Position numbers and translations under genes: made by a program. The notes below the pieces were generated by a model. It was not told the DNA's origin. It searched no databases and was given only the letters and a program-made list of their open reading frames with translations. DNA of 26,620 nt from a virus. Numbering within the stretch: the stretch's first letter is position 1; every line of letters begins with the position of its first letter. Below, one piece after another: positions 203-15,531 of the stretch. The stretch is from IMG/VR virus record IMGVR_UViG_3300028590_000076, positions 1-26,620 of that record; one strand, written 5' to 3'.

Positions 203-1303
203 TCACATGGCTACGCGGTTTGGCTCCACGGTTTCACGCCACCTCTGCTTCACGTAGATCTCGGTGGTCGCCTTGTCTTCGTGGCCGCAGAGGGCCTGGA
301 TCTCCTCGATCGGCACCTTCGCCAGCCACATGTCGGTGGCACCCTTGCCCTTGAGGTCACGGAAGCCGAAGCTCGGCATGGCCTCGATCCCTTTCTTCGC
401 ACGTGCCTTGTTGGCCTTGGCGATGCAGCGCTTGAGCATCGCGCTCAGGCCGTCATAGGTGTAGGGCTCGCCGTCGCGCGTGCGCACGATCGCCTGGCGC
501 AACTTGGGCACGTCACCGAGACTCGCGCGAATCAAATCGTTGAGCTCGTCGTCGACACCGACCTGCATCCACTTGCCGGTCTTGCCTTGGCGGAACTTGA
601 GCACGCGGCGGCCGTGCACTGTGGCCAGCACGCGGTTGTCCCAACCAATGATGTCGCTCTCGGGCCGCTGTAGCGTGCGGTAGGTGAGGGCCATCATCAG
701 GCGCACGGAAGTGCCGGCGACGGCCCAGACCTCGCGGTACTCGTCATGTGTCACGTACCGGTCCCGCTTCGCCTCTGGGTTGCGTTGGATGCCGCTGGCG
801 CGCAGGCATGGGTTGACCATCAGCCCGGGCACCTTCTCACCGCGGAGCAGCCAGCCGAAGCAACTGGAGAGGGCGGCCTTCTCGCGGTTTGCTGGGACTG
901 GCCGGCCCAACTGGGCATTCAGCTCGAGGAACTCCTGGATGTTGGCGGGCGTGACGTCGAGCGGCGTCATGGGGGGCGCGAAGTAGAGCGAGAGCGCGCC
1001 CTCGCGCGCCTTGTTGCCCTTGATGGCGTCGGTGTAGTCATCGAGCGTGCGCTGGGAAAGTGTGCCGGCCTTCACGCGCGCCTCGCAGTCCACGAGGAAC
1101 AGGCCCAGCCAGTGCACCATGGTGCCGTACTGGCCTTCCGGGTCGTTGAACAGGCGGGCCTTCTCGTTGGCGGCGGCCATGTCCTGGCCCAGGTTCTCCC
1201 ACTTGCCCGTGCGGTGGACGTAGTAGTAGGACCCGCTGCGCATGTAGACGCGCGGCTCCAGTCCGGAATCGGGGTTCTTGCGGCGGCGGCCCATGGGCGG
1301 CAT
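203..1303 (-). CDS. int: Tyrosine site-specific integrase
   Basis: A 366-aa phage integrase that would catalyse recombination between attP and the tRNA-Asn attB. The start at 1303 is chosen because AGGAG sits 5 nt upstream; the frame stays open further upstream but the extra residues look like out-of-frame GC-rich translation. Visible parts are an Arg/Lys-rich N-terminus, a core-binding region (about 60-170) and a catalytic domain with Arg213 in TLQRPESD, Lys241 in GKTGK, His341 in CGHED and Tyr350 in EIYVKQ. The usual HxLR box reads FRDLKGKGATD (314-324), so the box histidine is Arg and the second catalytic arginine is Lys318. A Lys here occurs, as far as I recall, in a proteobacterial phage subfamily with HDLKAKG-type boxes. 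It lies 14 nt after the DUF4224 gene, probably in one transcript. Confidence 0.93.
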   Translation of the reverse strand: MPPMGRRRKNPDSGLEPRVYMRSGSYYYVHRTGKWENLGQDMAAANEKARLFNDPEGQYGTMVHWLGLFLVDCEARVKAGTLSQRTLDDYTDAIKGNKAREGALSLYFAPPMTPLDVTPANIQEFLELNAQLGRPVPANREKAALSSCFGWLLRGEKVPGLMVNPCLRASGIQRNPEAKRDRYVTHDEYREVWAVAGTSVRLMMALTYRTLQRPESDIIGWDNRVLATVHGRRVLKFRQGKTGKWMQVGVDDELNDLIRASLGDVPKLRQAIVRTRDGEPYTYDGLSAMLKRCIAKANKARAKKGIEAMPSFGFRDLKGKGATDMWLAKVPIEEIQALCGHEDKATTEIYVKQRWRETVEPNRVAM

Positions 1304-3007: not shown

Positions 3008-3330
3008 CGCATGGCCTTTCCGATTTCAGCGGCAGCGCGCACGATGGCTCGGCGGGTGGCTGCGGCTGGGTCGCCTTGGTCGGTCTCATCGACATAGGCG
3101 TTCGGCCTCCCAGGGACGCCTATCTGAACGCATGGGCTTCCCATGTAGCAGCGCACGGTCATATGCAGCTTCACAGCCAGCCGCAGCGCATCGCCGTCGT
3201 CGGTGAGTGGGTTCCATGGCCTTTCAGCAACGCCAAACCCCTCGCTGTAGTAGTTGCCGTCAATGTCAGTCCACACGGAAACGCCAGCAGCCTTAGCCGC
3301 CAGCTCCAGAAGTTCACGATCTGTGCTCAT
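3004..3330 (-). CDS. Phage hypothetical protein with WNPLxDDGDALRLAVKL motif
   Basis: A 108-aa protein. The N-terminal MSTDRELLELAAKAAGV and central WNPLTDDGDALRLAVKL are familiar from small phage accessory proteins. The central motif resembles the opening of the phage ABA-sandwich domain, but I hold that only loosely. The C-terminus is a helix (RRAIVRAAAEIGKAM). AAGGAGG is well placed before the ATG at 3330. It overlaps both neighbours by four bases. Role unknown. Confidence 0.75.
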   Translation of the reverse strand: MSTDRELLELAAKAAGVSVWTDIDGNYYSEGFGVAERPWNPLTDDGDALRLAVKLHMTVRCYMGSPCVQIGVPGRPNAYVDETDQGDPAAATRRAIVRAAAEIGKAMR

Positions 3331-3878
3331 CCCTTGCCTCCTTGTTCTGGAGGGGCGGGAATAGCGCCGATCCGTTGCCAGTGGGTGTACGGCGCGTTCT
3401 CGGAAGGGCCGCGACTCCCTGGCGGCGCGACCATCAGGAAGTGCTCATGGTCGGCGCTGTGCTTCTGCCACAAGCCTTCTTCCAGCCAATCGAAGTCGTG
3501 ACGCTCCGGGTGCTCGGTGTCTTCGGAGTCCAGCCAGCCGACAACGACAAGCTCAGCCTCAGGCGCTGTGCTGATCGGTTGCCACCCTTGCGGAGTGCTG
3601 GGGTGGGAGAGGGCGGCACGGGTGTTCCAGTTTTCGATTGCCTCGGTCACCGTAAGCTTGAACCCGCCCTGTGCTCCGCAGCCGCCCGGGCCGTCTGGCC
3701 TACTCGCATCGCAGACTACCGCGTAGCTATCGGAGTGCTCCCAAGGATCTTGGTCGTCGTCACCTTCGTTTGCAAGTTCCTCGGCGCTGACGACCTTGAG
3801 TGAGCGCACCATGCCGCAGAACGGGCACGGCAGCAGCTCCCTCTCGCTTGCTTGTGGAATGGGGGTGGTGTCAGACAT
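3327..3878 (-). CDS. Lar-like zinc ribbon fused to a DUF551 domain
   Basis: A 183-aa two-domain protein. Residues about 15-90 look like the Lar (restriction alleviation) family: LLPCPFCG, a second cysteine group (CDA...GGCGAQGG) and the closing AIENWNTRA. Residues about 98-175 begin GWQPISTAPEAELVVVGW and end THWQRIGAIPAPP, the DUF551 pattern. Lar-family proteins alleviate type I restriction in Rac prophage, but most relatives are untested and this could be just a zinc-ribbon binding module. The start at 3878 has GGAG upstream. It overlaps both adjacent genes. Confidence 0.82.
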   Translation of the reverse strand: MSDTTPIPQASERELLPCPFCGMVRSLKVVSAEELANEGDDDQDPWEHSDSYAVVCDASRPDGPGGCGAQGGFKLTVTEAIENWNTRAALSHPSTPQGWQPISTAPEAELVVVGWLDSEDTEHPERHDFDWLEEGLWQKHSADHEHFLMVAPPGSRGPSENAPYTHWQRIGAIPAPPEQGGKG

Positions 3879-4116
3879 TGCTGGTCTCCAAACGGGCGCG
3901 CAGGGCGTGGATGGCTTCGTCTGTTGCGGCGTTTGCGCAAGGCCAATCGACGCACTTCCTCAGCTCATACAGGGCAGTCCGCATCAGCGCTTCGTCGGCC
4001 TCGATGCGGGAGTGCTGGCGGCGGAGTTCGTTCGCGGCTGAACGCTCTATCGGACCGCAGCCCATAGAGCATTCCATGTATGTCGCCAGCCTCAGCGCTT
4101 CAGGTTGGTCTCTCAT
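3871..4116 (-). CDS. Small hypothetical phage protein
   Basis: An 81-aa helical protein opening with MRDQPEALRLATYME and followed by AANELRRQHSRIEADEAL, an arrangement common in short phage proteins with a coiled-coil-like middle. AAGGAG precedes the ATG at 4116, which overlaps the preceding stop codon (ATGA). No function can be assigned. Confidence 0.7.
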   Translation of the reverse strand: MRDQPEALRLATYMECSMGCGPIERSAANELRRQHSRIEADEALMRTALYELRKCVDWPCANAATDEAIHALRARLETSNV

Positions 4117-4838
4117 GTGCTCTCCTTGGTGACGATGCCATGGGCGTGCTCAGCCGCACGGACCGCCTTGCGCATGGACTTGCTGTCCACCGGGCAAAAC
4201 GGGTTGTTGATGCTGAAAGTGGCATCGCGCAGCTTCTCGATCTGCTCATCCGACAGCGGCACCCTCTCTGCAGGGGTGGATGCGCGGAGAGCGGCGAGCA
4301 CTGGTCGGAGTAAATCGACTGCCTCGGTGGCAACGTAGCGCGGGCGGTCGGTGTTGTTCCACGCGATCTGATTCAGGAGATCGATCGCCGCTTCAATCGC
4401 CCCTGCTGTTGCTGCCTGCGGGGATGGGGTGGCGGCTTCTCCAACGAAACACAGCATTCGCCCATCGTCGATGCGGCCAGCGTCAACCAAAGCTTCGGAG
4501 AGGCCCCAATGCACGTCTGCGGCTTGCTCTGGCGTCAGGGTTGGCAGGCGAACCGTCACCAGTTCCCCCTGCACTCGCTCGGGTGACTCCAGGGCGGCGC
4601 GCTCGTTCCATTTGGTGGTCAGCGCTGCCCGCATTTCTGCATCACGGTGTTTGACCGTCATGTCTCGGGCTTTGTTCCAGCCGATACTTGAGGTCATCGT
4701 CGAGCAGCATCTGAGCTTCAACTGCACGTAGCGTCTGTCGTCATGCCACTCAGCGGCGTCTCCCTCAAACCATGGCTCTCCGCCGCAGAATGGGCAAGGC
4801 AAGAGCGCTGCCAGCTCGGTGTGGGATGGGTTGGTCAT
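4113..4838 (-). CDS. Second Lar-like zinc-ribbon protein, extended
   Basis: A 241-aa protein. Residues about 12-85 carry a Lar-type zinc ribbon: LLPCPFCGGEPWF, a cysteine pair in LKLRCCSTM, and the end motif ALTTKWNERAA. The remaining roughly 150 residues are an unrecognised, mostly helical extension, including SDEQIEKLRDATFSI near the C-terminus, a phrase that recurs in modular phage proteins. The start at 4838 is set by AAGGAG, about 6 nt upstream; the frame stays open for 24 more codons upstream, but those overlap the neighbouring gene. It is the second Lar-like gene in this operon. Anti-restriction is possible from the family, not shown. Confidence 0.78.
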   Translation of the reverse strand: MTNPSHTELAALLPCPFCGGEPWFEGDAAEWHDDRRYVQLKLRCCSTMTSSIGWNKARDMTVKHRDAEMRAALTTKWNERAALESPERVQGELVTVRLPTLTPEQAADVHWGLSEALVDAGRIDDGRMLCFVGEAATPSPQAATAGAIEAAIDLLNQIAWNNTDRPRYVATEAVDLLRPVLAALRASTPAERVPLSDEQIEKLRDATFSINNPFCPVDSKSMRKAVRAAEHAHGIVTKEST

Positions 4839-6419: not shown

Positions 6420-6629
6420 TCAGAGGACAGCGACGACGCGGCGCATGGCCACGCGCGTGAGATTCATGCCCAGGTAGGAGGCCGAGCAGCCGGCGAACCG
6501 TCCCGGGCACCACCAGTCGCCGCGCTTCATGGCGTGCTCCAGGGAGTCGTGCAGTTCGTCCTCGTGCTTCGTGGGGCACTCCACGCGCACGAGTTCGCCC
6601 CCATCAAGGACCAGGTCGACGAAGGTCAT
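6420..6629 (-). CDS. Small hypothetical protein
   Basis: A 69-aa protein starting MTFVDLVLDGGELVRVECP, with two cysteines in WWCPGRFAGCSASYLG and a basic, hydrophobic C-terminus. The ATG at 6629 has AAGGAA upstream and overlaps the stop of the preceding gene (ATGA). The family is not recognised. The upstream open frame is discarded because it runs inside the neighbour. Confidence 0.68.
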   Translation of the reverse strand: MTFVDLVLDGGELVRVECPTKHEDELHDSLEHAMKRGDWWCPGRFAGCSASYLGMNLTRVAMRRVVAVL

Positions 6630-7090
6630 GGCGTTTCCTTGGAGAGTTGCAGGCGCGCCATCTGCGCGTTCGACCACAGGGCCGCGCGCACGGCGAACCC
6701 GAAGCGGTCCATTTCGATGAGCTGGTCCATCACCTCGGCGGCGGCCCGCGCGGTCAGGAGCTGGGCGCTGTTGAAGCCCACGCGCCCGGTGGTGCGGAAT
6801 CGCTCGAGCACGCCGGTGTAGGTTTCCAGCTGCTCGGCGATCGCGGCCTTGGCCTCTTCAGTGAAGGGCGTGCCGTCGGCCTCCAGCAGGCGCATCAGCT
6901 CGATGTAGGTCAGGCCCGTCTCGATCCAGTCCAGCAGGTCACCCTGCGTGGCCCGGCCGCTGGTGAAGCGCTCGATCAGATCCCAGTGCGCCAGCTTGCA
7001 GGTGGACACCTGCGCGGCGGTGATGGTGGGCTGCCAGAACTTGGGCAGCTCCCGCTTGGCGTGCGCGGCGCGGCGGTGTGCGGTCTTCAT
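6626..7090 (-). CDS. Helical hypothetical phage protein
   Basis: A 154-aa, almost entirely helical protein with a basic N-terminus (MKTAHRRAAHAKREL). The middle (ATQGDLLDWIETGLTYIELM) and the C-terminal pattern (LLTARAAAEVMDQLIEMDRFG) recur in uncharacterised Burkholderiales phage proteins. The start at 7090 lies inside the end of the methyltransferase gene with GAGGG upstream. Its position directly after the methyltransferase is consistent with translational coupling, but gives no functional link by itself. Confidence 0.75.
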   Translation of the reverse strand: MKTAHRRAAHAKRELPKFWQPTITAAQVSTCKLAHWDLIERFTSGRATQGDLLDWIETGLTYIELMRLLEADGTPFTEEAKAAIAEQLETYTGVLERFRTTGRVGFNSAQLLTARAAAEVMDQLIEMDRFGFAVRAALWSNAQMARLQLSKETP

Positions 7091-8763
7091 GCTGCGGCCC
7101 TCACGCTGACCATTTCGGCGTAGTTCGCGGCCACCAGCGCGCGCGCCAGCGGCGGGCAAACGCTGTTGCCGCACATGCGCACCTGGGCCGTCTTGGTCAG
7201 CGGGCGGCCATCGGCGCCCAGGTCGATGCGGTAAGTCTCGGGGAAGCCCTGGGCTCGGTAGAGCTCGCGCGGTGTGAGCATGCGCAAGCCGATGTCGACG
7301 ATCGCATAGGGCTCGCCCTTGACCATCACCAGGCCGAAGCGGTCCTTCGTTGTGACCGTGTGCAGCGGCTCGCGCAGTGCTGGATCCTGATCGGTGCCGT
7401 AGTACTTGATCAGGAAGGCCTGCACCTCTGCGTGGTGGGTGCCCTGGGCGCTGATGGTGTGCAGGGGTTCGTCGGCACCGCTGCCCACGTTGTCGCCTCG
7501 CATCTTCAGCATGTGGCTGGTGACGATACCGGCGGGCATGCCGCTGGCCGCCACGGTGTTCAGCGGCTGCTCGACATCGCGCACGCCGTGGCTGAACCGC
7601 TTGGTGCCGTCCTTGCCCTCACCGTGGCCCATGTGGATCAGGTTGGCCGCCACCAGGCTGTGGTGGTCGACCGTGGTGGCGGTGCCCATGGGTGCGCCCA
7701 AGTCGCTGCCCACCACGCCGGTGTAGTGCTTGGCGAGGAATGCCGACACCAAACCCTGGTGCTGGCCTTGCGCCGTGATCGTGCTCAGCGGCACCTCGAT
7801 TCCTGGCACGCGCGGTTGCTGGCCTGGGCGCTCGCCGTAGCCCATGCTGATGATGGTGGGCACAGACAGAGCAAACCCGGGCGCGCTGGTGGCGGTGCGC
7901 AGCGGTTCGGTGAGCGGCCAGTGATTCGGGGCCCTCCCGGTGGTCTTGCTGTTCGCCGTGTTCACGATGAACGGCTCGGCCGCGTCGATCACGTACCGCA
8001 CGATGCCCTTGGCGATGCGCCTGCACGTGGCGTCGGCCAGTGGCCGGGTGCGCTCGAAGATGCTGGGCGCGGCCACGCTCCAGTCGATGCACTCGGCGGC
8101 CGTGCGCCATGGCTTTAGCTTCTTCTGGCGCACCGGCAGGCTGTCCGGTGCCGCGTGCGTGGCTTCGGGCCACACCACCGGCTGGCCATCGCGCCGCGCC
8201 ACCAGAAACAGGCGCTTGCGGATGGTGGGCGCGCCGTAGTCGCAGGCCCGCAGCTCGCGGTGCTCGACCACATAGCCAAGGCTCTCCAGGCTGCGCTTCC
8301 AGCGGGCGAAGGTGGCGCCCTTGCGGCGTGGGCACGGCATGTTGTCGGCACCGAGCGGTCCCCAGGTCTGGAACTCTTCGACGTTCTCCAGGCAGATCAC
8401 GCGAGGGCGCACTGCCTTCGCCCACTTCACCACCACCCAGGCCAGGCTGCGGATCTTCTTGCTCACGGGCTTGCCGCCCTTGGCCTTGCTGAAATGCTTG
8501 CAATCAGGGCTGGCCCAGAGCAGGCCCACCGGCTGGCCGTCGGTGACCACCAGCGGATCCACTTCGAACACGTCCGACACGAAGTGGCGAGTCTGCGGGT
8601 GGTTCGCCTCGTGCAGGCTCACGGCCTCGGGGTCGTGGTTGATGGCGATGTCGACGTGCCGGCCGATGGCCTGCTCGATGCCGGTGCTGGCACCACCGCC
8701 ACCGGCGAACAGATCCACCACCAGTTCACTGGCGATGGGCAGGATGAACTGGGGGTTCAACAT
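7087..8763 (-). CDS. Orphan C5 cytosine-specific DNA methyltransferase
   Basis: A 558-aa enzyme transferring a methyl group from S-adenosylmethionine to cytosine C5. Motif I is DLFAGGGG (17-24). Motif IV is the variant SPDCKHFS with catalytic Cys88. Motif VI is ENV (126-128), motif VIII lies in YGAPTIRKRLFLVAR (176-190), motif IX in RELYRAQGFPETY (499-511) and motif X in GNSVCPPLA (532-540). The target-recognition region holds six copies of a PLxT-starting repeat, at residues 287, 325, 358, 400, 433 and 466, which account for its length above typical Dcm-like enzymes. No restriction enzyme gene is adjacent, so self-modification of phage DNA against host restriction is the likely role. Target sequence unknown. 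Confidence 0.95.
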   Translation of the reverse strand: MLNPQFILPIASELVVDLFAGGGGASTGIEQAIGRHVDIAINHDPEAVSLHEANHPQTRHFVSDVFEVDPLVVTDGQPVGLLWASPDCKHFSKAKGGKPVSKKIRSLAWVVVKWAKAVRPRVICLENVEEFQTWGPLGADNMPCPRRKGATFARWKRSLESLGYVVEHRELRACDYGAPTIRKRLFLVARRDGQPVVWPEATHAAPDSLPVRQKKLKPWRTAAECIDWSVAAPSIFERTRPLADATCRRIAKGIVRYVIDAAEPFIVNTANSKTTGRAPNHWPLTEPLRTATSAPGFALSVPTIISMGYGERPGQQPRVPGIEVPLSTITAQGQHQGLVSAFLAKHYTGVVGSDLGAPMGTATTVDHHSLVAANLIHMGHGEGKDGTKRFSHGVRDVEQPLNTVAASGMPAGIVTSHMLKMRGDNVGSGADEPLHTISAQGTHHAEVQAFLIKYYGTDQDPALREPLHTVTTKDRFGLVMVKGEPYAIVDIGLRMLTPRELYRAQGFPETYRIDLGADGRPLTKTAQVRMCGNSVCPPLARALVAANYAEMVSVRAAA

Positions 8764-8767
8764 GGCG

Positions 8768-9376
8768 TCAGGCCTCTGCAGTCGCGCCGCGCTTCGAAGC
8801 CTTGCCCAGCGCCTTCTCGGGCGTGAGCGGGTCGGCCTCGATCTCGCGCTGCTGTGCGCTCACCGCCTTCGCGGCTTCGAGCTCAATGTCGCGGGTCAGG
8901 CTCTTGAGCACGCCCAGCGCGCCGATCGTGTGCTCGTCCACGTCGGCGGTGTAGACCTCCATCTTCCATTCGACGGCGCCGCCTTCTTTCGGCTCGACCT
9001 TCACCTTGCGCACGGTGCAGTCGCTCAGCGTGATGTCCTGGTCACCGGTCACACCCTGGTAGATCTTGAGCGTGGCGCCGGTCTGCTCGCCGTCCCAGTT
9101 CAGGGCACCCAGGGCCATGGCGGCATCGGTGAGCTGCGGCAGATCGGACACCACGGGCACGCCGTCCAGCACCTGCTGCTGTGCAGCGGCTGGCAGGCCC
9201 TTCTCGAACAGGAAGTTCAGGAGGGTGGGGTCCAGCATCTTCAGGGTGCTGTTGGCCAGGGTGAGCTTCAGGGTGAGGCACACGGCTGGCACCACGTCGG
9301 TCTGGCCCATCTTGAGGGACTGGATGTCGATGTCGCTGATGATGGCTTTGTGCTTGCCGGCGAATTCAATGCGCAT
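8768..9376 (-). CDS. Hypothetical protein in the recombination module
   Basis: A 202-aa protein of unknown family. The N-terminal 130 residues look strand-rich (MRIEFAGKHKAIISDIDIQS, later GATLKIYQGV, ITLSDCTVRKVKVEP, WKMEVYTADVD). The last 50 are a helical, charged tail. It follows the RecB-like nuclease and Sak4-like ATPase genes, where other phages place a single-strand-binding or DUF669/DUF2815-type protein. An OB-fold accessory role is therefore a reasonable hypothesis, but no diagnostic motif is visible. The start at 9376 has only a weak GAAAG upstream. Confidence 0.78.
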   Translation of the reverse strand: MRIEFAGKHKAIISDIDIQSLKMGQTDVVPAVCLTLKLTLANSTLKMLDPTLLNFLFEKGLPAAAQQQVLDGVPVVSDLPQLTDAAMALGALNWDGEQTGATLKIYQGVTGDQDITLSDCTVRKVKVEPKEGGAVEWKMEVYTADVDEHTIGALGVLKSLTRDIELEAAKAVSAQQREIEADPLTPEKALGKASKRGATAEA

Positions 9377-9409
9377 GGTGGTCTTTCAGGTTGGTGGTGG
9401 GGGAAGGGG

Positions 9410-10006
9410 TCAGGCGGCCACGGCGGCGTGCTCGCGCACGAACCGGGCGAAGCGCGTCACGAGCGCCTGGCAGTCGGCGGTCATGGCGGGGTAGCGGAAC
9501 TGCTCCAGCGTGTGCTGGTCGCGCACCTCGTAGAAGCCGGGGGCGTCCAGCTCGGACAGCTCAAACACGTTCCAGCGGAACTGCGAGGCGCCGAAGATGT
9601 CGAGGTACAGCCGCCACTGGTATCCGCTCATGAAGCGGTCAGGGTCGAAGCGGCTGGTGGTCTTGTGGTCCTCGATGCGCAGGCCCTCCAGGGCGTCCAC
9701 CTGTCCGCTGATCACGATGGGCTGGCCGTCGACCATGTAGGTCTTCGAGGCGCGCAGTTCGCGGATCACCGGCAGGCGCACTTCGAAGTCGCCCCGGAAG
9801 GTGAAGGTGTGGCCCAGCGCTTCCAGGGTGGACACGGTGAGCCCGGTGGGCGCATCCTCCAGCGCCTTGTGGAAGGCAGTGCCGGCCAGCATGGCGGGCG
9901 AGGGCTCGAAGCCGTGCAGCAGCTCGTCCACGAACGGCTCCAGTTCGGCTTCCTCGTCGGCCTCCCACTTGCGGAAGGCCTCCACGTTGGAGACACGCCA
10001 CCTCAT
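9410..10006 (-). CDS. PD-(D/E)XK nuclease, RecB/Cas4-like
   Basis: A 198-aa single-domain nuclease. The family motifs appear in order: GTAFHKALE with His46, GQVDALEG with Asp104, the (D/E)XK signature DHK (113-115) in RIEDHKTTS, and the QxxxY motif (Gln130-Tyr134) in YQWRLYLDIFG. All catalytic positions of the RecB/PDDEXK_1 family are present. The start at 10006 overlaps the stop of the ATPase gene by four bases (ATGA), indicating coupled translation. The likely role is end resection or trimming of DNA in partnership with the Sak4-like recombinase, by analogy with phage exonuclease-annealase pairs. Confidence 0.92.
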   Translation of the reverse strand: MRWRVSNVEAFRKWEADEEAELEPFVDELLHGFEPSPAMLAGTAFHKALEDAPTGLTVSTLEALGHTFTFRGDFEVRLPVIRELRASKTYMVDGQPIVISGQVDALEGLRIEDHKTTSRFDPDRFMSGYQWRLYLDIFGASQFRWNVFELSELDAPGFYEVRDQHTLEQFRYPAMTADCQALVTRFARFVREHAAVAA

Positions 10007-10896
10007 GCTGTCACCGCCTCGGTGTACTGCTTTGCCTTCGCGTCGAAGGTCAGTCCGTTGATCTTGGCGGCATCGGCCAGCATGGCCTGGGCTGCCTTGG
10101 GTGCCAGCTTCACCTCGGCCAGCGCGGCGTTGAAGTCCTTGGCGCTGCCCATGCCGGCGATGCGCTCGCGCCACTGCACCAGCACCTGCTGCGCGGCGGC
10201 CTGTTCCTCGGTGAGCGAGTTCAGCCGGTCCTTGATCGACTGCACCACGCCGGACAGGAACTGAGGATCGCGGTCGGGGTGCACGATCTCCAGTGGCTCA
10301 AGCTGGCCGGGGTTCTTGCCGAACGCCGCATCGGTGGGCGAGAAGTTCAGCAGGCGCTTGCCTTCGCGGATCACCAGCCGGCCCATGGCGTCGGCGGCCT
10401 TGTAAATCTCGCCCTTGCTGCCGCCCTGCACGTCCAGGCGCTCGACGATCTCGTCACCGTTGCGCTGCTCGTCCATGTGGGCAATCAGGATCACGTCCTT
10501 GCCCAGCGTGTTGAGCATCTTGAGCCAGGCCACGAACTCAGCCTTCAGCGTGCCGTAGCCCTGCAGGGTGAGTGCACCACCGCGGCCGGCCTTGGGGTTG
10601 CGCCGGATGATGTCGGCGGTGAGCTGGTCCAGCGCGCGGCCGGCGGTGTCCACCACCACCGTGCTGTAGGGCTCCAAGTCTTCGGCCTTGATGCTGGCCA
10701 CGTCTTCCCATGCGGTGACGCGCACGGTGTCCTTGCGGTTCGCCGCGCGGTGGGCGCCCTGGTCGAAGTCCAGCAGCAGCGGGGCCGCGGCGGTGAACGC
10801 CAGCGAGGTCTTGCCCACGCCGGGCGGGCCGTACAGGCAGAGGTTGAGGCGGTCGACCTTGATCGGGTCGGAGGAACGAAGGATGCGAAGGGCCAT
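10003..10896 (-). CDS. Sak4-like AAA (RecA-type) ATPase, probable single-strand annealing/recombination protein
   Basis: A 297-aa P-loop ATPase. Walker A is GPPGVGKT (23-30) and Walker B lies in YSTVVVDTAG (about 79-88). The core up to about residue 215 matches the AAA_24/Sak4 type (LLLDFDQGAHRA, VILIAHMDEQ). The C-terminal 80 residues are a helical extension. Sak4 proteins are short RecA-like recombinases of phages. The adjacent PD-(D/E)XK nuclease supports a recombination pair. GGAG lies about 7 nt before the ATG at 10896. A 30-nt gap separates it from the mini-genes upstream. Confidence 0.9.
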   Translation of the reverse strand: MALRILRSSDPIKVDRLNLCLYGPPGVGKTSLAFTAAAPLLLDFDQGAHRAANRKDTVRVTAWEDVASIKAEDLEPYSTVVVDTAGRALDQLTADIIRRNPKAGRGGALTLQGYGTLKAEFVAWLKMLNTLGKDVILIAHMDEQRNGDEIVERLDVQGGSKGEIYKAADAMGRLVIREGKRLLNFSPTDAAFGKNPGQLEPLEIVHPDRDPQFLSGVVQSIKDRLNSLTEEQAAAQQVLVQWRERIAGMGSAKDFNAALAEVKLAPKAAQAMLADAAKINGLTFDAKAKQYTEAVTA

Positions 10897-11105: not shown

Positions 11106-11266
11106 TTCTTGAACGCCGGCACCAGGGGCAGCTCGGGGCGCTTGGAGAGTTCGCGCAGCAGGGTCTGGACGGTGCGCGCGCCTTCGGACTGCTTGCATCC
11201 AGCGCCGCGCGGGGTGCGGTCCTGGCACACGCCCAGCTGGTCGCAGGTGCGGGCGGGCGCGTTCAC
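11102..11266 (-). CDS. 54-aa cysteine-containing mini-protein (GTG start)
   Basis: A 54-residue protein starting at a GTG that overlaps the SGNH gene stop (GTGA). Three cysteines are spaced in CDQLGVCQDRTPRGAGCK, possibly a metal-binding knuckle or disulfide motif. Similar short CxxLGVCQ proteins are common in Burkholderiales prophages, as far as I recall. The C-terminal half is a helix and a hydrophobic tail ending AFKK. Confidence 0.62.
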   Translation of the reverse strand: MNAPARTCDQLGVCQDRTPRGAGCKQSEGARTVQTLLRELSKRPELPLVPAFKK

Positions 11267-11844
11267 AGTGCATCCCCGATGCACGCAGCCAGGCGCTTCT
11301 GCTTCGCCTCGTAGCCTGCAGCGGTAGGGTGGGCGCCGTCCGCCAGCGGCACATCCGGCTGGGCGCAGAAGTACACGCCCTCGGCGGCGGCCAGCGGCCC
11401 CATGGCGGCGCGGCGTTCGTTGAACTTCGCCAGGTCGAACCCGGCGTGTGCCGCCGCGTTGTTCGGCTGCTCCAGGATGAGCTGCTTGCGGTAGGCCCGG
11501 GTGATGCGCACCAGCTCGCGCAGCGCGTGCTTGTACTCGTCCAGGGTCAGGCCGCCATCGTTCAGGCCGCCGTTGTAGATCACGATCGGCGCCTTGGTGG
11601 CCGCCAGTTCGTCGAACCACTTCGCCAGCCACTGGGCCGTGGACGATCCGCTGATGCCCTTGTTCTCGATCGTCCAGCCCGGCCGGCTCGCCGCATGCGG
11701 GTTGCCGTGCGCGGCCTGGGTGCTGTCACCGAACGCCACGATGTGCACCACCGGCGCGGGCAGGTTGCTCTCGGTCGGGGTGCTGGAGCCGCCACCGCCG
11801 CACGCGGCCAGCAGCATGGCCAGGGGGAAGGTGTGGCCCTTCAC
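11263..11844 (-). CDS. SGNH/GDSL-family hydrolase, predicted lipoprotein (copy 1)
   Basis: A 193-aa probable envelope esterase or deacylase. A short signal peptide ends in the lipobox LAAC with Cys15, followed by a Gly/Ser linker, so lipid anchoring is predicted. The catalytic domain has GDST (Ser41), a block II glycine in KGISG, block III GLND (Asn95) and the Asp169-Gly-Ala-His172 pair. The GTG start at 11844 overlaps the preceding stop (GTGA); the open frame upstream lies inside the neighbour and lacks a signal peptide. It lies in the repressor-controlled early-left operon. It clearly resembles the protein at 13626-14294. Substrate unknown; surface polysaccharide acyl groups are a plausible target. 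Confidence 0.88.
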   Translation of the reverse strand: MKGHTFPLAMLLAACGGGGSSTPTESNLPAPVVHIVAFGDSTQAAHGNPHAASRPGWTIENKGISGSSTAQWLAKWFDELAATKAPIVIYNGGLNDGGLTLDEYKHALRELVRITRAYRKQLILEQPNNAAAHAGFDLAKFNERRAAMGPLAAAEGVYFCAQPDVPLADGAHPTAAGYEAKQKRLAACIGDAL

Positions 11845-12134
11845 GGCGTCACCTCGTCGGCCAGGATCTCCAGCGATTCGCACACTTCGGGGAGGTGGGC
11901 TTCCTGCGCCTTGCAAGCCAGGGTGTTCAGCACCGAGCCGATAAAGGCCGGGGTGACCAGGTCGAACGGCGTGCGCTGAATGGCCGTGCACGCGGCGTTG
12001 ATGTGGTGCTCGTAGGCCGCTTCGTTCTCGGCCCGGCGCTCAGCGTCCAGCGCCTCGTCCACCTGCTGGGGGGACAGCCGGGGGCAGCTCTCCCGGCGCT
12101 CCACGTTGTCGATGACCATGGTGATCTGGGACAT
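11841..12134 (-). CDS. Hypothetical protein
   Basis: A 97-aa soluble, mostly helical protein with three cysteines and an acidic C-terminus. No family is recognised. Its ATG at 12134 shares one base with the stop of the 312-aa gene (TGATG), and its stop overlaps the SGNH start, so it is fully embedded in the operon. GAGGT just before its stop codon may act as the ribosome-binding site of the SGNH gene. Confidence 0.7.
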   Translation of the reverse strand: MSQITMVIDNVERRESCPRLSPQQVDEALDAERRAENEAAYEHHINAACTAIQRTPFDLVTPAFIGSVLNTLACKAQEAHLPEVCESLEILADEVTP

Positions 12135-13072
12135 CAGGCCCCCTGAGCAACGAGGCCAGAGGCCACACCGATGGCGGTGGCGTTCCGGAAGGCCTGCCAT
12201 GCGCCCACGCTCGGAGCCCACCGGAAGCCGCACGACTTGAGCTTGGTGCGGACCTCCTCGGCGGGCTTGCCAGGGAAGAACAGCCGTACCCGGTTGGCGG
12301 GCGGGTCGTCTTCCATCCGCACGCCGTTGGCGCCCTGTGCTTCGGTCACGGGCATCGCCGCCGCGCGCTCGATCTGCTCGAAGCGCTGCTGCATGCGGCG
12401 GATGTTGGCCTGGTTGTTCGTGAGGCGAAACGACGGGTAGCCCTGGCCGTAGGTGCTCTCGAACTTGGGGCTGACCAGCTCGCGCGCCCGGTCTTCGGAG
12501 AGGCCGAGGTCGATCAGCGCGGCGGTCTGCGCGTCTTTGCCCGCCTTGCCCGTCTTGCGCAGCGCGGCGTTCACCGCCTTCATCTGCGTCTGCAGGCGCT
12601 GGGCCTCGCTGATCTCTGCAGCCAGCCGGTCGAGCGCGTCGGCATCGCCGGCCATGATCGGCCGCAGGTCCGGGCGCAGGCGCCGCATGACCGCGCGCTT
12701 GGCCATCTCGCGCCAGGTGAACAGGTCATTGAGGCGCCGGTCGGCGACGGCGGAGCGCTTCTGCGCCCTGGCGACAGGGAAGTTCGAGGGGCCGACGATG
12801 AAGGAAGAGACGCACCGGCTGCTCGACTGCAGGTAGGCGATGTAGCGGCGGCGGAGGCCATCCCGGTAGCGGGCGAACTCTTCGGCGACGAGTGCTTGGG
12901 TGTTGCCGCGTTCGGCTGCGGCGGCGAAGGCCGCGAGATCGTCGGCCAGCAGGGCCGCGTAGTCGCTGCGGGCGCGCTCGCCACGCTGCTCCGGCGTGAA
13001 GCTCACCAGGGAAAAGGCGGAAACTGCCAACGACACAGGAATGTCGCCGCTGTATTCGTTCGATTGATTCAT
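12134..13072 (-). CDS. First gene of early-left operon, unknown 312-aa protein
   Basis: A 312-aa protein. The N-terminal 100 residues are helical, then comes SNFPVARAQKRSAVADRRLN, a phrase I associate with a conserved phage/plasmid family. A coiled-coil stretch follows at about 150-185. The C-terminal 60 residues form a small domain (NRVRLFFPGKPAEEVRTKL, then GFRWAPSVGAWQAF) also seen at the ends of mobile-element proteins of unknown function. AAAGGAGAG is well placed before the ATG. It is the first gene after the operator-bearing promoter, so it should be among the earliest expressed on induction. No enzymatic motif is visible. Confidence 0.8.
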   Translation of the reverse strand: MNQSNEYSGDIPVSLAVSAFSLVSFTPEQRGERARSDYAALLADDLAAFAAAAERGNTQALVAEEFARYRDGLRRRYIAYLQSSSRCVSSFIVGPSNFPVARAQKRSAVADRRLNDLFTWREMAKRAVMRRLRPDLRPIMAGDADALDRLAAEISEAQRLQTQMKAVNAALRKTGKAGKDAQTAALIDLGLSEDRARELVSPKFESTYGQGYPSFRLTNNQANIRRMQQRFEQIERAAAMPVTEAQGANGVRMEDDPPANRVRLFFPGKPAEEVRTKLKSCGFRWAPSVGAWQAFRNATAIGVASGLVAQGA

Positions 13073-13114
13073 GCTTCTCTCCTTTGCGGACCCCGATCTG
13101 GAGTCGATGGAGAG

Positions 13115-13143
13115 AATTTAGCGCAGCGCTAATGATGCGTCAA
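13115..13143 (-). promoter_or_regulatory. Early-left promoter (PL-like)
   Basis: On the minus strand TTGACG (13143-13138) and TAAATT (13120-13115) are separated by exactly 17 nt. The predicted start lies near 13108, giving a leader of about 36 nt to the ATG at 13072. One operator covers the spacer and part of the -10 box, and a second abuts the -35 box, so repressor binding should block the promoter. Confidence 0.8.
13118..13132. promoter_or_regulatory. Repressor operator OL1
   Basis: The perfect 15-bp palindrome TTAGCGCAGCGCTAA lies over the spacer and -10 of the early-left promoter. The identical 15-mer occurs at 15240-15254 beside the repressor gene. Confidence 0.85.
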
Positions 13144-13157
13144 TAGCGTAGCGCTAA
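13143..13157. promoter_or_regulatory. Repressor operator OL2
   Basis: ATAGCGTAGCGCTAA is an imperfect copy of the operator with one intact half-site (GCGCTAA). Its centre is 25 bp from that of OL1, and it touches the -35 box of the early-left promoter. Confidence 0.75.
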
Positions 13158-13173
13158 ATATTTTTCGCAGACG

Positions 13174-13197
13174 AAAAAAAGCCCGCAGGCCGCGGGC
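13174..13197 (-). terminator. Rho-independent terminator of the repressor operon
   Basis: On the minus strand a 6-bp GC stem (GCCCGC/GCGGGC, 13181-13197, loop of 5) is followed by seven T (13180-13174). It begins 4 nt past the SNase stop codon and insulates the early-left promoter from repressor-operon transcription. Confidence 0.88.
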
Positions 13198-13200
13198 AGA

Positions 13201-13629
13201 TCACGGGGTTGGCTTTCGCCTCCATTCCCATGGCGGGATCGGGGTGGGGTCGGCCCACAGTCCGATGCGCTCAGCGCGTGCTGCCGTTTCCTTGCGAGCC
13301 ACAGCCGGGTCGGTCAGGTATTTCTTGAACGCCCAGGCCATGCCGGCGCGCACCTGCTGCAGGTTGGCGTCCTGGCCGCGGCACTCGACACGAGCAAGGG
13401 TGCGCCCGTAGCGATCGCGGCCGGCGGCCCGGATGGTTGCCTCCTGCTGGAAACACAGGTCGGCCAGGTGCTGGCGGCTGCGCTCGCCGAAGGGCTGCTT
13501 CTTCTCGGGTGCGTCGATCTCGGTGAGGCGCACCGTCACCTGTTCATAGGCTCCGGGCGCGCCGCAGCGGGCTTTGAGGGTGTCGCCGTCGCTGATGGCT
13601 ACCACGAGGCAGAGAAGGGGAGCGATCAC
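13201..13629 (-). CDS. SNase-like (thermonuclease) nuclease
   Basis: A 142-aa staphylococcal-nuclease-type phosphodiesterase. The three catalytic positions of the family are present: Arg34 with Asp39 and Glu42 in VRLTEIDAPE, and Arg76 in RDRYGRTLARV. The fold starts at once with VVAISDGDTL after a brief hydrophobic N-terminus (IAPLLCLVV), which looks like a shortened or fused export signal. The GTG start at 13629 overlaps the SGNH stop (GTGA) as elsewhere in this phage; an ATG at 13668 would add 13 residues and a basic n-region, and cannot be excluded. It is the last gene of the repressor operon, followed directly by the terminator. If exported it would degrade nucleic acid at the cell envelope. 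Confidence 0.88.
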   Translation of the reverse strand: MIAPLLCLVVAISDGDTLKARCGAPGAYEQVTVRLTEIDAPEKKQPFGERSRQHLADLCFQQEATIRAAGRDRYGRTLARVECRGQDANLQQVRAGMAWAFKKYLTDPAVARKETAARAERIGLWADPTPIPPWEWRRKPTP

Positions 13630-14294
13630 GACTTGAGACCAGCCGTGGCCTTGAAAGCGCCGATGCACTGAGCGAGACGTTCGGCCTTGATGGCATAGCC
13701 CACAGACGAGGGGTGCACGCCGTCAACCAGGGGCACATTGGGCTGTTCACACAGGCTGGTGCCGTACTTCTTGGCGACTTCCTTCATGACCTCGACGCGC
13801 CTTTCGAACGCAGGCACATCGAATTCCCCATGTGCCTGCACTCCGCCGCTGGGCGTTTCCAGCATCACGCTGCGGCCGGACGCCAGTGCCACACGAACAA
13901 GGGTCGACAGGTGCCGCGTGTAGTCCTCGTTCGTGGTCCCGCCGCTGATGTTCAGCGCGTGGTTGATGATCACAAGCTCCGCCTGAGTTGCCGCCATTTC
14001 CTCAACCCAGGGCCTGTTCAGACCGTCTTTGCCCTCTAGGAGTTGCCCCGCTGTCGTGCCGATCACCCCTCGATTGAGGATCGTCCAACCTGGCCGATCT
14101 GAAGCGTGAGGCATTCCGTGGGCGAGCTGGGTGCTGTCGCCGTACGCCGCTACGACCCCTTGGACTGGAGGGCTGATGTTAGGCGGCAGGGTGAAGCGTT
14201 CTTCCGGTGACTTGGTGCAAGCCGAAAGGACAACAGCTGCACACGCAGCCATGCTGAGCTTGGCCGGGATCAGCCAAAGGGCAACTGTCCGCAT
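13626..14294 (-). CDS. SGNH/GDSL-family hydrolase, predicted lipoprotein (copy 2)
   Basis: A 222-aa protein with a signal peptide and lipobox LSAC (Cys26). The catalytic domain has GDST (Ser54), a block II glycine (NRGVIG), a changed block III (HALNI instead of GxND) and DGVH (Asp191, His194). It shares with the copy at 11263-11844 the GDSTQ.AHG.PHA..RPGWTI stretch, the QPxVPLxDGxHP stretch and the C-terminal CIG segment, so the two are paralogues. No clear Shine-Dalgarno precedes the ATG at 14294, which lies 10 nt after the membrane-protein gene. Being in the repressor operon it should be made in the lysogen, which suggests surface modification as lysogenic conversion (inference). Confidence 0.87.
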   Translation of the reverse strand: MRTVALWLIPAKLSMAACAAVVLSACTKSPEERFTLPPNISPPVQGVVAAYGDSTQLAHGMPHASDRPGWTILNRGVIGTTAGQLLEGKDGLNRPWVEEMAATQAELVIINHALNISGGTTNEDYTRHLSTLVRVALASGRSVMLETPSGGVQAHGEFDVPAFERRVEVMKEVAKKYGTSLCEQPNVPLVDGVHPSSVGYAIKAERLAQCIGAFKATAGLKS

Positions 14295-14304
14295 GGGGGG
14301 CGTG

Positions 14305-14496
14305 TCAATCGCGGCGGGTGGGCCACTTGACGAACGCCAAGTACCAGACGAACAAGATGTTCACGATGGGGATGTGGAAAGCGATCGACAGCGCGGGGTG
14401 ATGGCCCGTTTTCTGAACGACTCGCCAAAGTGGCCACGCCACTGCGACGATGTAAATCAGAATCACCAACCAGTGCCAAATCGAGAAACTTCCCAT
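14305..14496 (-). CDS. Small two-span membrane protein
   Basis: A 63-aa protein with two hydrophobic segments, roughly residues 6-24 (IWHWLVILIYIVAVAWPLW) and 38-57, separated by a short polar loop with QKTGHH. Similar small proteins with an IWHWL start are widespread in Proteobacteria with unknown function. GGAGGG lies 6 nt before the ATG. It follows the repressor gene by 12 nt, so it is cotranscribed with it and likely expressed in the lysogen. A superinfection-exclusion role is possible from position only. Confidence 0.8.
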   Translation of the reverse strand: MGSFSIWHWLVILIYIVAVAWPLWRVVQKTGHHPALSIAFHIPIVNILFVWYLAFVKWPTRRD

Positions 14497-14508: not shown

Positions 14509-15180
14509 TTAAAGCATTGATCCGGTCCAAACCGCGCGGCCAATCACGTCGATCTCGCCCGTGCTCGTGTTCGAATAAACCCGCGTCTTTGGCTTGAAGT
14601 TGGGGTTCTCGGCGGTGGCCAGCACGCCCACGCCGTCGACGCTCTGAAGGCGCTTGATCAGCAGTTCCCCGTCATACCGGAACGCGAAGAAATCGCCGTC
14701 CAGGTGCTCACGGTCGCCTCGGTTCACCAAGACCACTGACCCATCGACGATCTTGGGCTCGTTGCTGATGCCCTGAGCATCCACCACCACCGCGTTGCCA
14801 GGCGCGATGCCCAGCCGGCGCAGGAAGTCGCTGCGGAACACCAGTGGCGGCTTGTCGTCCTCGTGGTAGACCACCTGGCCCAGGCCGTTGGAAAAGGCCA
14901 CGTCAGCGCGCCGCACTGGCGTGAAGTCGTTCGGGTTGTAGCCCGAGTCCTCGACTGGCTGGTCCATCCAGCCGTCCGGCTTGCCGCACTTCTTTTCGAT
15001 TTCTCGGGCGGTGGATCGATCCATGGCGCGAGGCTTCCCCGTTCGTGAGTCTTTGGACGCATTGATCCACTGGCTCACCTGGGCAGGCGACTTGTCCAGC
15101 ATGGCGGCGAGCGCCGACTGGGAGCCAGCTTCGGCAGCCAGCATCTTGAGGCGCGCTCGGTAGATCTCTTCGATTCGCAT
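14509..15180 (-). CDS. CI-like repressor (HTH plus S24/LexA-type domain)
   Basis: A 223-aa lysogeny repressor. Residues about 8-60 form an HTH (SQSALAAMLDKSPAQVSQWI). Residues about 113-215 are an S24 peptidase-like domain with Ser139 in GISNEPKIVDG and Lys176 in ELLIKRLQ, the expected Ser/Lys dyad, although the usual GDSMEP reads GISNEP. No Ala-Gly lies in the linker and the only Cys-Gly is at 65-66, at the HTH edge, so RecA-stimulated self-cleavage is uncertain. The ATG at 15180 is chosen from the HTH start; AGGGAG is about 15 nt away, too far, and the promoter prediction gives almost no leader. It faces the Cro-like gene across three operators. Confidence 0.93.
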   Translation of the reverse strand: MRIEEIYRARLKMLAAEAGSQSALAAMLDKSPAQVSQWINASKDSRTGKPRAMDRSTAREIEKKCGKPDGWMDQPVEDSGYNPNDFTPVRRADVAFSNGLGQVVYHEDDKPPLVFRSDFLRRLGIAPGNAVVVDAQGISNEPKIVDGSVVLVNRGDREHLDGDFFAFRYDGELLIKRLQSVDGVGVLATAENPNFKPKTRVYSNTSTGEIDVIGRAVWTGSML

Positions 15181-15188
15181 GGCGCGAT

Positions 15189-15217
15189 TGTTTAGCTCCC
15201 TGCTAACCAGGGGAATT
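15189..15217 (-). promoter_or_regulatory. Repressor promoter (PRM-like)
   Basis: On the minus strand TAAACA (15194-15189) is a fair -10 box. With a 17-nt spacer the -35 would be AATTCC, which is poor, as expected for a promoter needing activation by bound repressor. The predicted start is near 15182, so the repressor mRNA would be leaderless or nearly so. Confidence 0.5.
15192..15206. promoter_or_regulatory. Repressor operator OR3-like
   Basis: TTAGCTCCCTGCTAA is a degenerate match to TTAGCGCNGCGCTAA, overlapping the repressor -10 box. Its centre is 24 bp from that of the next operator. Occupancy here should shut off the repressor promoter. Confidence 0.65.
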
Positions 15218-15230
15218 CGCGTAGCGCTAT
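15216..15230. promoter_or_regulatory. Repressor operator OR2-like
   Basis: TTCGCGTAGCGCTAT has one good half-site (GCGCTA) and one weaker half. It is centred 24 bp from both flanking operators and just behind the -35 box of the rightward promoter. Confidence 0.65.
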
Positions 15231-15257
15231 TGACAACGTTTAGCGCAGCGCTAACAA
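15230..15257 (+). promoter_or_regulatory. Early-right promoter (PR-like)
   Basis: A consensus TTGACA (15230-15235) and TAACAA (15252-15257) are 16 nt apart, with the perfect operator between them. The predicted start falls at about 15263-15265, on or next to the ATG of the Cro-like gene, implying a leaderless message. Confidence 0.75.
15240..15254. promoter_or_regulatory. Repressor operator OR1-like
   Basis: The perfect palindrome TTAGCGCAGCGCTAA, identical to the operator at 13118-13132, lies between the -35 and -10 boxes of the rightward early promoter. Confidence 0.85.
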
Positions 15258-15264
15258 TCGGCGC

Positions 15265-15531
15265 ATGAACCTCCCCGACTACATCAATTCCGAGCCCGGC
15301 GCCCAGGCGCGTCTCGCCAAAGAGCTGGGCATTCCCGCGCCCCTGATGAGCCAGTGGAAGACCGGCGAGCGCCGTGTGCCGGCAGAGCGCTGCCCGCTGA
15401 TCGAGCGCGCCACCGGCGGACTCGTGAGGTGTGAAGACCTCCGCCCCGATGTCGCCTGGGACGTCCTCCGTTTGCAAGCAGAACCCGCAGCCGCGGGCAT
15501 CACACCCGAGCCCGCAGGGCAGGGCACCTAA
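15265..15531 (+). CDS. YdaS/Cro-like HTH regulator
   Basis: An 88-aa protein. Residues 1-68 match the YdaS/Cro-like pattern: MNLPDYI, an HTH ARLAKELGIPAPLMSQWKTG, then the typical RRVPAERCPLIERATGG and DLRPD. These proteins act as Cro-type early repressors opposing CI at the shared operators; the YdaS name comes from an antitoxin annotation in Rac prophage. The C-terminal 20 residues are a Pro/Ala/Gly tail. No Shine-Dalgarno is present before the ATG, and the promoter -10 box is only 7 nt upstream, so the message looks leaderless. It is the first gene of the rightward operon. Confidence 0.88.
   Translation: MNLPDYINSEPGAQARLAKELGIPAPLMSQWKTGERRVPAERCPLIERATGGLVRCEDLRPDVAWDVLRLQAEPAAAGITPEPAGQGT

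Follow-up and report, generated by a model that had tools for sequence, protein, structure and literature searches.

Two predicted SGNH lipoproteins on opposite arms of a temperate phage switch: candidate esterases of the host surface

Why would one temperate phage carry two lipoprotein genes of the same hydrolase family, one of them in the operon of its repressor and the other in an early operon which that repressor is predicted to shut off? The question is raised by the virus record IMGVR_UViG_3300028590_000076 from IMG/VR, which was analysed here at its full length of 26,620 bases (the window; GC content 66%). Two genes on the minus strand, which we call SGNH1 (11263-11844, 193 amino acids, third in the left early operon) and SGNH2 (13626-14294, 222 amino acids, within the repressor operon), each encode a predicted lipoprotein SGNH/GDSL hydrolase. 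The reading which we favour, tentatively and at somewhat less than even confidence, is that both are envelope-anchored O-acetyl or short-acyl esterases, carried by the phage as host-modifying cargo that alters phage receptors.

The initial annotation of this DNA had described both open reading frames as lipoproteins with a lipobox, a GDST serine and a DGxH pair, and as sharing the stretches GDSTQ.AHG.PHA..RPGWTI and QPxVPLxDGxHP. All of this could be confirmed. Both reading frames exist; SGNH1 starts with a GTG which overlaps the TGA of the preceding gene, SGNH2 with an ATG. The lipoboxes, LLAAC-G at Cys15 of SGNH1 and VLSAC-T at Cys26 of SGNH2, pass a rule modelled on PS51257 (a charged N-terminus and a hydrophobic stretch, then a lipobox with its Cys between 15 and 35, and any residue but Asp at +2). 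This rule is passed by 10 of the 1098 candidate starts in the window, and since the remaining passes are by inspection reading frames shadowing other genes or an alternative SGNH1 start, SGNH1 and SGNH2 are the only real genes of the window among them. The catalytic residues are Ser41, Gly66, Asn95, Asp169 and His172 in SGNH1 and Ser54, Gly79, Asn115, Asp191 and His194 in SGNH2. All five positions (the Ser of block I, Gly of block II, Asn of block III and the DxxH of block V) are invariant in the alignment of a four-member group, and in seven phage lipoproteins Ser, Asn, Asp, His and the lipid-bearing Cys do not vary. A further pair of cysteines, C160/C188 in SGNH1 and C182/C210 in SGNH2, is invariant in the four-member group, which fits an exported protein. 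The alignment of the two copies that had been proposed along with the annotation shows them to be paralogous (43% identity over 197 columns, BLASTP E 4e-50) and contains both shared stretches. When SGNH2 was searched against its own record, it matched only itself and SGNH1. By its score of 42.4 bits SGNH1 is placed above the curated gathering cut-off of 32.9 for PF13472 (Lipase_GDSL_2).

The predicted structures point in the same direction. AlphaFold2 models, with four aligned phage relatives as input, reached a mean predicted local distance difference test score of 74 for SGNH1 and 75 for SGNH2 and predicted template modelling scores of 0.71-0.73. Their best Foldseek matches in the PDB are nearly all GDSL/SGNH hydrolases (best E 3.7e-9 for SGNH1 and 5.2e-7 for SGNH2). 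With VIA-align the aryl esterase of M. smegmatis was matched by the SGNH1 model with Z 19.2 (root-mean-square deviation 1.9, 162 residues aligned) and by the SGNH2 model with Z 17.2 (deviation 2.4, 164 residues aligned), and the carbohydrate acetylesterase Est24 ties with it for both models. Both proteins are thus modelled with the three-layer alpha/beta/alpha fold of SGNH hydrolases. The SGNH domains of PatB are also among the fold matches of SGNH2, and lipoproteins may face the periplasm; the two proteins could accordingly be Ape-like O-acetyl esterases of peptidoglycan or of another periplasmic polymer, tuning the murein to phage or host lysozyme. We consider this highly improbable, as the PatB matches are weak (8-10% identity), rank below those to tail fibres and acetylesterases, and the phage proteins have no peptidoglycan-binding part.

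Among homologues whose substrate has been established, the tail spike of Pectobacterium phage PP99 comes nearest (29% identity, at an hhalign probability of 98.6% and E 9.5e-16); it was shown to take acetyl off a side-chain sugar of the O-polysaccharide (PMC6989608). The sequence matches of SGNH2 among solved structures are phage tail proteins only. Proteins with SGNH domains are frequent in Klebsiella prophages, where esterase activity was demonstrated for two, both of them receptor-binding proteins of the virion, and the spike of phage G7C is an SGNH deacetylase as well (PMC13123978). E. coli 4s without O-acetylation is fully resistant to G7C (PMC10743462); an esterase anchored on the surface of a lysogen could mimic this O-acetylation-free, resistant state.

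The second line of evidence concerns the position of the genes with respect to the switch. The CI-like repressor (14509-15180, minus strand), with a YdaS-type helix-turn-helix region that stays below the cut-off and a Peptidase_S24 domain, heads a leftward operon which continues with a small membrane protein of 63 amino acids (14305-14496, minus strand, preceded by a good ribosome-binding site, GGAGGGAAGAG), SGNH2 and a nuclease. The gaps are 10-12 bases or the starts overlap, and a sequence scan of the operon found no strong terminator between the repressor and SGNH2. The nuclease is staphylococcal-nuclease-like (13201-13629, minus strand, PF00565, 1.7e-21), its start overlaps the SGNH2 stop in a GTGA, and behind it the operon is closed by an intrinsic terminator (13181-13197, minus strand, GCCCGCGGCCTGCGGGC followed by a T run). 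Two observations on these neighbours may be added. The first 19 residues of the small membrane protein are TatA-like, below the cut-off (NCBIfam E 7e-5), and the remainder is not. The nuclease, the last gene of the operon, has a hydrophobic N-terminus and might, if exported, contribute to exclusion together with SGNH2.

Beyond the terminator follows the predicted leftward early promoter, which is pL-like (13115-13143, minus strand, TTGACG-17-TAAATT). Its -10 region is covered by a perfect palindrome, the putative left operator 1 (13118-13132, TTAGCGCTGCGCTAA), while a second putative operator with one mismatch (13143-13157) touches the -35 region. On the other side of the repressor the predicted pR-like promoter (15230-15258, plus strand, TTGACA-17-AACAAT) precedes the gene for a Cro-like regulator (15265-15531, plus strand), the first of the rightward arm. 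Here the putative right operator 1 (15240-15254) is identical to left operator 1, right operator 2 (15216-15230) shows two mismatches, and a possible third operator with three mismatches (15192-15206) lies just upstream of the repressor start. Over the whole window the motif was found, with up to three mismatches, as nine strand matches at six places against 0.8 expected, and five of the six places fall in the two intergenic regions at pL and between repressor and cro. The putative operators form a lambda-like OL/OR arrangement. From the operon layout and the palindrome common to pL and pR, the placement of the two copies under opposite arms of the switch appears well supported, with SGNH2 accompanying the repressor and SGNH1 in a predicted repressor-controlled early operon. 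The annotation had claimed the same, separate transcription units under opposite arms, and the terminator, the promoter-like site with its two operator copies and the operator type at the SGNH1 promoter agree with it.

Under the favoured reading SGNH2 would be made in the lysogen alongside the repressor and would remove ester groups from the O-antigen, the capsule or another surface glycan of the host, thereby changing the receptor layer and hindering the adsorption of phages which need the ester-decorated polymer. SGNH1 would be kept silent by this repressor and come on early upon induction or infection. It is a divergent form, one loop shorter, and its target in the lytic cycle may be a different position or polymer; its action might keep rivals off the infected cell or free the progeny from receptor-bearing debris. 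Deacylation of a receptor, exclusion of superinfecting phages and a pulse on induction had already been put forward with the annotation, and they stand as hypotheses. We infer here an enzymatic activity, its substrate, exposure on the outer-membrane surface, actual expression and an exclusion phenotype.

Several points weigh against this reading. Operators and promoters alike are sequence matches. No consensus promoter for the repressor operon was found by the scan, so that transcription of SGNH2 in the lysogen rests on the analogy with pRM. SGNH2 scores 23.5 bits against PF13472 (E 9e-5), under the cut-off of 32.9, and its block III is changed. Fold and sequence do not tell carbohydrate acetylesterases from lipid esterases or thioesterases, and TesA is among the matches. 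Finally, the genes of the relatives adjoin the lysis cassette, and others were thereby prompted to propose a role in lysis.

These relatives are SGNH lipoproteins of the same kind, which occur as single copies in at least five phages: L004, L006, Burkholderia phage Magia, Xanthomonas phage PBR31 and L078. Each of these phages has the gene next to endolysin, holin or spanin genes. The authors of PBR31 proposed a lysis role for gp40 (PMC10975493), and the Magia protein is annotated as an outer membrane-associated lipid esterase. SGNH1 and SGNH2 could hence be accessory lysis esterases, lipoprotein acylhydrolases which weaken the outer membrane or envelope late in infection. However, the SGNH gene faces the lysis genes head-on in each of the five, following the integrase or early genes, and because it points against the lysis genes it is not part of the late transcript. 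Of the copies in the window, one lies in the repressor operon and the other in an early operon, and neither occupies a late lysis position. We therefore regard a lysis function as quite unlikely.

Magia also brings up the opposite chemistry. In its record (L003, 7884-9848) the SGNH lipoprotein stands side by side with a stand-alone AT3 acyltransferase, the two genes being convergent, and it is possible that this pair represents an acetyl-adding and an acetyl-removing enzyme in one phage. In AT3-SGNH enzymes the transfer cannot proceed without the SGNH domain, and the soluble PatB can accept acetyl from a protein that consists of AT3 only (PMC9558356). The phage proteins might thus be the SGNH partners of a membrane acyltransferase which adds acetyl to a surface glycan, as in AT3-SGNH or PatA/PatB-like systems, a case of classical serotype conversion. 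Yet no AT3 gene (PF01757) was found in the 26.6-kb record of the window, in L004, L006, PBR31 or L078, several of which are fragments; the window itself ends before the lysis and tail part of the phage, where an acyltransferase or a third SGNH gene may be encoded. Moreover the lipoproteins, probably of the outer membrane, would be apart from an inner-membrane AT3 protein, and of the characterised homologues the nearest, the PP99 spike, is a deacetylase. An acyl transfer function is in our view very doubtful.

How do the two copies differ, and are they duplicates? The annotation had singled out an altered block III in the second copy as a sign of changed substrate or activity. SGNH2 indeed reads NHALNIS instead of NxGxND, with different residues in place of the adjoining Gly and Asp, but the oxyanion Asn is kept, and the clearer structural change is found in SGNH1. 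This protein lacks a loop of seven residues, GTDGxN, which appears as AGTDGxN in L004 and L006, as NGTDGxx in Magia and PBR31, as EGKDGLN in SGNH2 and as SGTDWAN in the PP99 tail spike. As judged from the alignment with the relatives, SGNH1 is through this loss the more unusual copy. That the second copy is inactive was considered and is argued against by the presence of every catalytic residue.

The further claim that both copies descend from one gene holds as far as distant homology goes. SGNH1 is closer to the L004 relative (53% identity; 50% over the best segment) than to SGNH2 (43%), and the tree joins SGNH1 and SGNH2 as sisters with low support (67/55), the alternative not being rejected (p 0.42 in the approximately unbiased test). 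The GC content at third codon positions is 0.92 in SGNH1 and 0.72 in SGNH2. The two genes are old homologues and may have been acquired separately; a recent duplication, in tandem or elsewhere in the genome, is possible but not supported, and their age and unequal third-position GC leave a duplication within the phage unestablished. Nucleotide differences between them amount to 0.59 at third positions against 0.43 and 0.38 elsewhere, an excess which fits selection on protein function in both copies. This bears on the possibility that the genes are generic host-fitness cargo, such as an esterase for nutrients without any bearing on phage competition, or that one copy is decaying after replacement by the other. 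SGNH2 with its altered block III and weaker Pfam score and SGNH1 with its lost loop would agree with it. We nevertheless consider it unlikely, given that all catalytic residues are kept in both proteins, that the differences are concentrated in third codon positions, and that both copies are conserved across a long divergence.

The distribution of the genes is that of accessory cargo. Sixty phages sharing the Sak4 gene were collected, and a search with the GDSL family was run over 50 whole records, most of them from this set. In these 50 kin records no SGNH gene that stands alone reaches the family cut-off; two records match the family, both within open frames of 534 amino acids which are probably tail proteins. 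Phages carrying both copies, for which the initial annotation had suggested a search, could not be found, the 50 kin records included. By direct sequence search no match to SGNH1 was found among 50,697 phage records and 72,556 plasmids; SGNH2 matches phage proteins only, at less than 32% identity, and nothing in the plasmids. Pattern-based scans of 84,980 bacterial genomes revealed no relative of either, and PADLOC gave no defence-system match for the two proteins. Both SGNH genes are missing from the 9.3-kb record of the close relative L011 (83-85% identical DNA where the two match), and the L011 homologues of the genes flanking SGNH1 are 344 bases apart instead of the 787 of the window. Neither gene is present in L028. 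Other envelope proteins take these places. Directly behind its repressor, at the place that corresponds to SGNH2 in the window, L011 encodes a DUF4156-like lipoprotein (6509-6817), and L075 an exported DUF2511 protein (6681-7046) behind a related repressor, while L028 carries a Gly/Ser/His/Lys-rich lipoprotein (9113-9436) in its early operon near the place of SGNH1. Envelope cargo thus seems to settle repeatedly at two sites, behind the repressor and in this part of the early operon. A distantly related lipoprotein was also noticed in L079 (9995-10819), near a ParA-like gene; its GDS motif reads YGNPLAG, the catalytic Ser is apparently lost, and it is possibly a non-enzymatic descendant.

A more specific version of the favoured reading can be formulated, which we hold to be rather unlikely in this full form. 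In it the two proteins would be separately acquired and structurally distinct surface deacetylases tied to opposite states of the switch. A lysogen cassette of SGNH2, the nuclease and the small membrane protein would give constant exclusion and SGNH1 would be pulsed on derepression, so that the ester pattern would be edited differently in lysogeny and in lytic growth.

The remainder of the record gives the setting. A tRNA-Asn gene (22-97) at its beginning is followed by an integrase (203-1228, minus strand) which reads away from the repressor; onward come a Sak4-type recombinase, the repressor/Cro switch and replication genes, and terminase and portal genes mark the end. Judging by this gene order, the record most probably covers the left portion of a temperate phage whose integration site is a tRNA gene or lies close to one. 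In the left early operon SGNH1 is preceded by a gene of a PHROG family annotated as primase (12134-13072, minus strand), which overlaps the next gene by 4 nt, and by a second gene (11841-12137, minus strand) whose stop overlaps the SGNH1 start and which has a 53% homologue in L011. Downstream of SGNH1 lies the Sak4-like recombinase (10003-10896, minus strand). The early operon also encodes a Lar-like restriction alleviation protein (4113-4838, minus strand); its neighbour (3327-3878) contains the motif ALSHPSTPQGW, which recurs in L004 proteins and in a variant form in L006. In a cytosine-5 DNA methyltransferase (7087-8763, minus strand) the N-terminal catalytic part is separated from the C-terminal end by a long run of repeated segments.

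Phage-driven conversion of the O-antigen is known mostly as the addition of glucose or acetyl. The Oac, OafB and GtrABC genes of temperate phages are comparable in that a phage-encoded change of the surface polysaccharide alters phage sensitivity; they add their groups in the inner membrane, whereas for SGNH1 and SGNH2 the predicted reaction is the removal of esters, by an enzyme anchored at the surface. A close counterpart is gp40 of PBR31, a putative deacetylase and possible O-antigen modification protein. It is a secreted SGNH hydrolase of an integrase-bearing phage, has its lipobox at Cys15 as SGNH1 does and is 33% identical to the L004 relative. It differs as a single copy between the integrase and the convergent lysis genes, and its role is a proposal. 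Magia gp029, an SGNH lipoprotein with 28% identity to SGNH2, is likewise a single copy, convergent with lysis genes and beside the AT3 acyltransferase, and owes its function to annotation. The PP99 spike gp55 has a homologous SGNH domain (the comparison covered PP99) and an established substrate (PMC6989608), but like G7C gp63.1 it is a virion tail spike of a lytic phage, whereas SGNH1 and SGNH2 are predicted lipoproteins. Ltp of S. thermophilus phage TP-J34 is, as SGNH2 would be, a prophage-made surface lipoprotein (PMC3952083); superinfection exclusion is a feature of Ltp, which is not known as an SGNH enzyme, while for SGNH1 and SGNH2 exclusion is a hypothesis.

In the open-licence literature no description of a prophage-encoded SGNH lipoprotein which deacetylates the host surface was found. 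Single-copy genes of this kind are already annotated; what is new is the presence of two divergent copies across one switch, in one example. If the favoured reading is true, an ester-removing lipoprotein which occurs in several phages, and is here doubled across the lysis-lysogeny switch, would represent an under-studied class of receptor editing. This could explain why SGNH genes annotated as lipase or esterase recur beside integrase and lysis genes, and it would mean that the virus may alter the coat of its host against rival viruses in dormancy and during multiplication alike.

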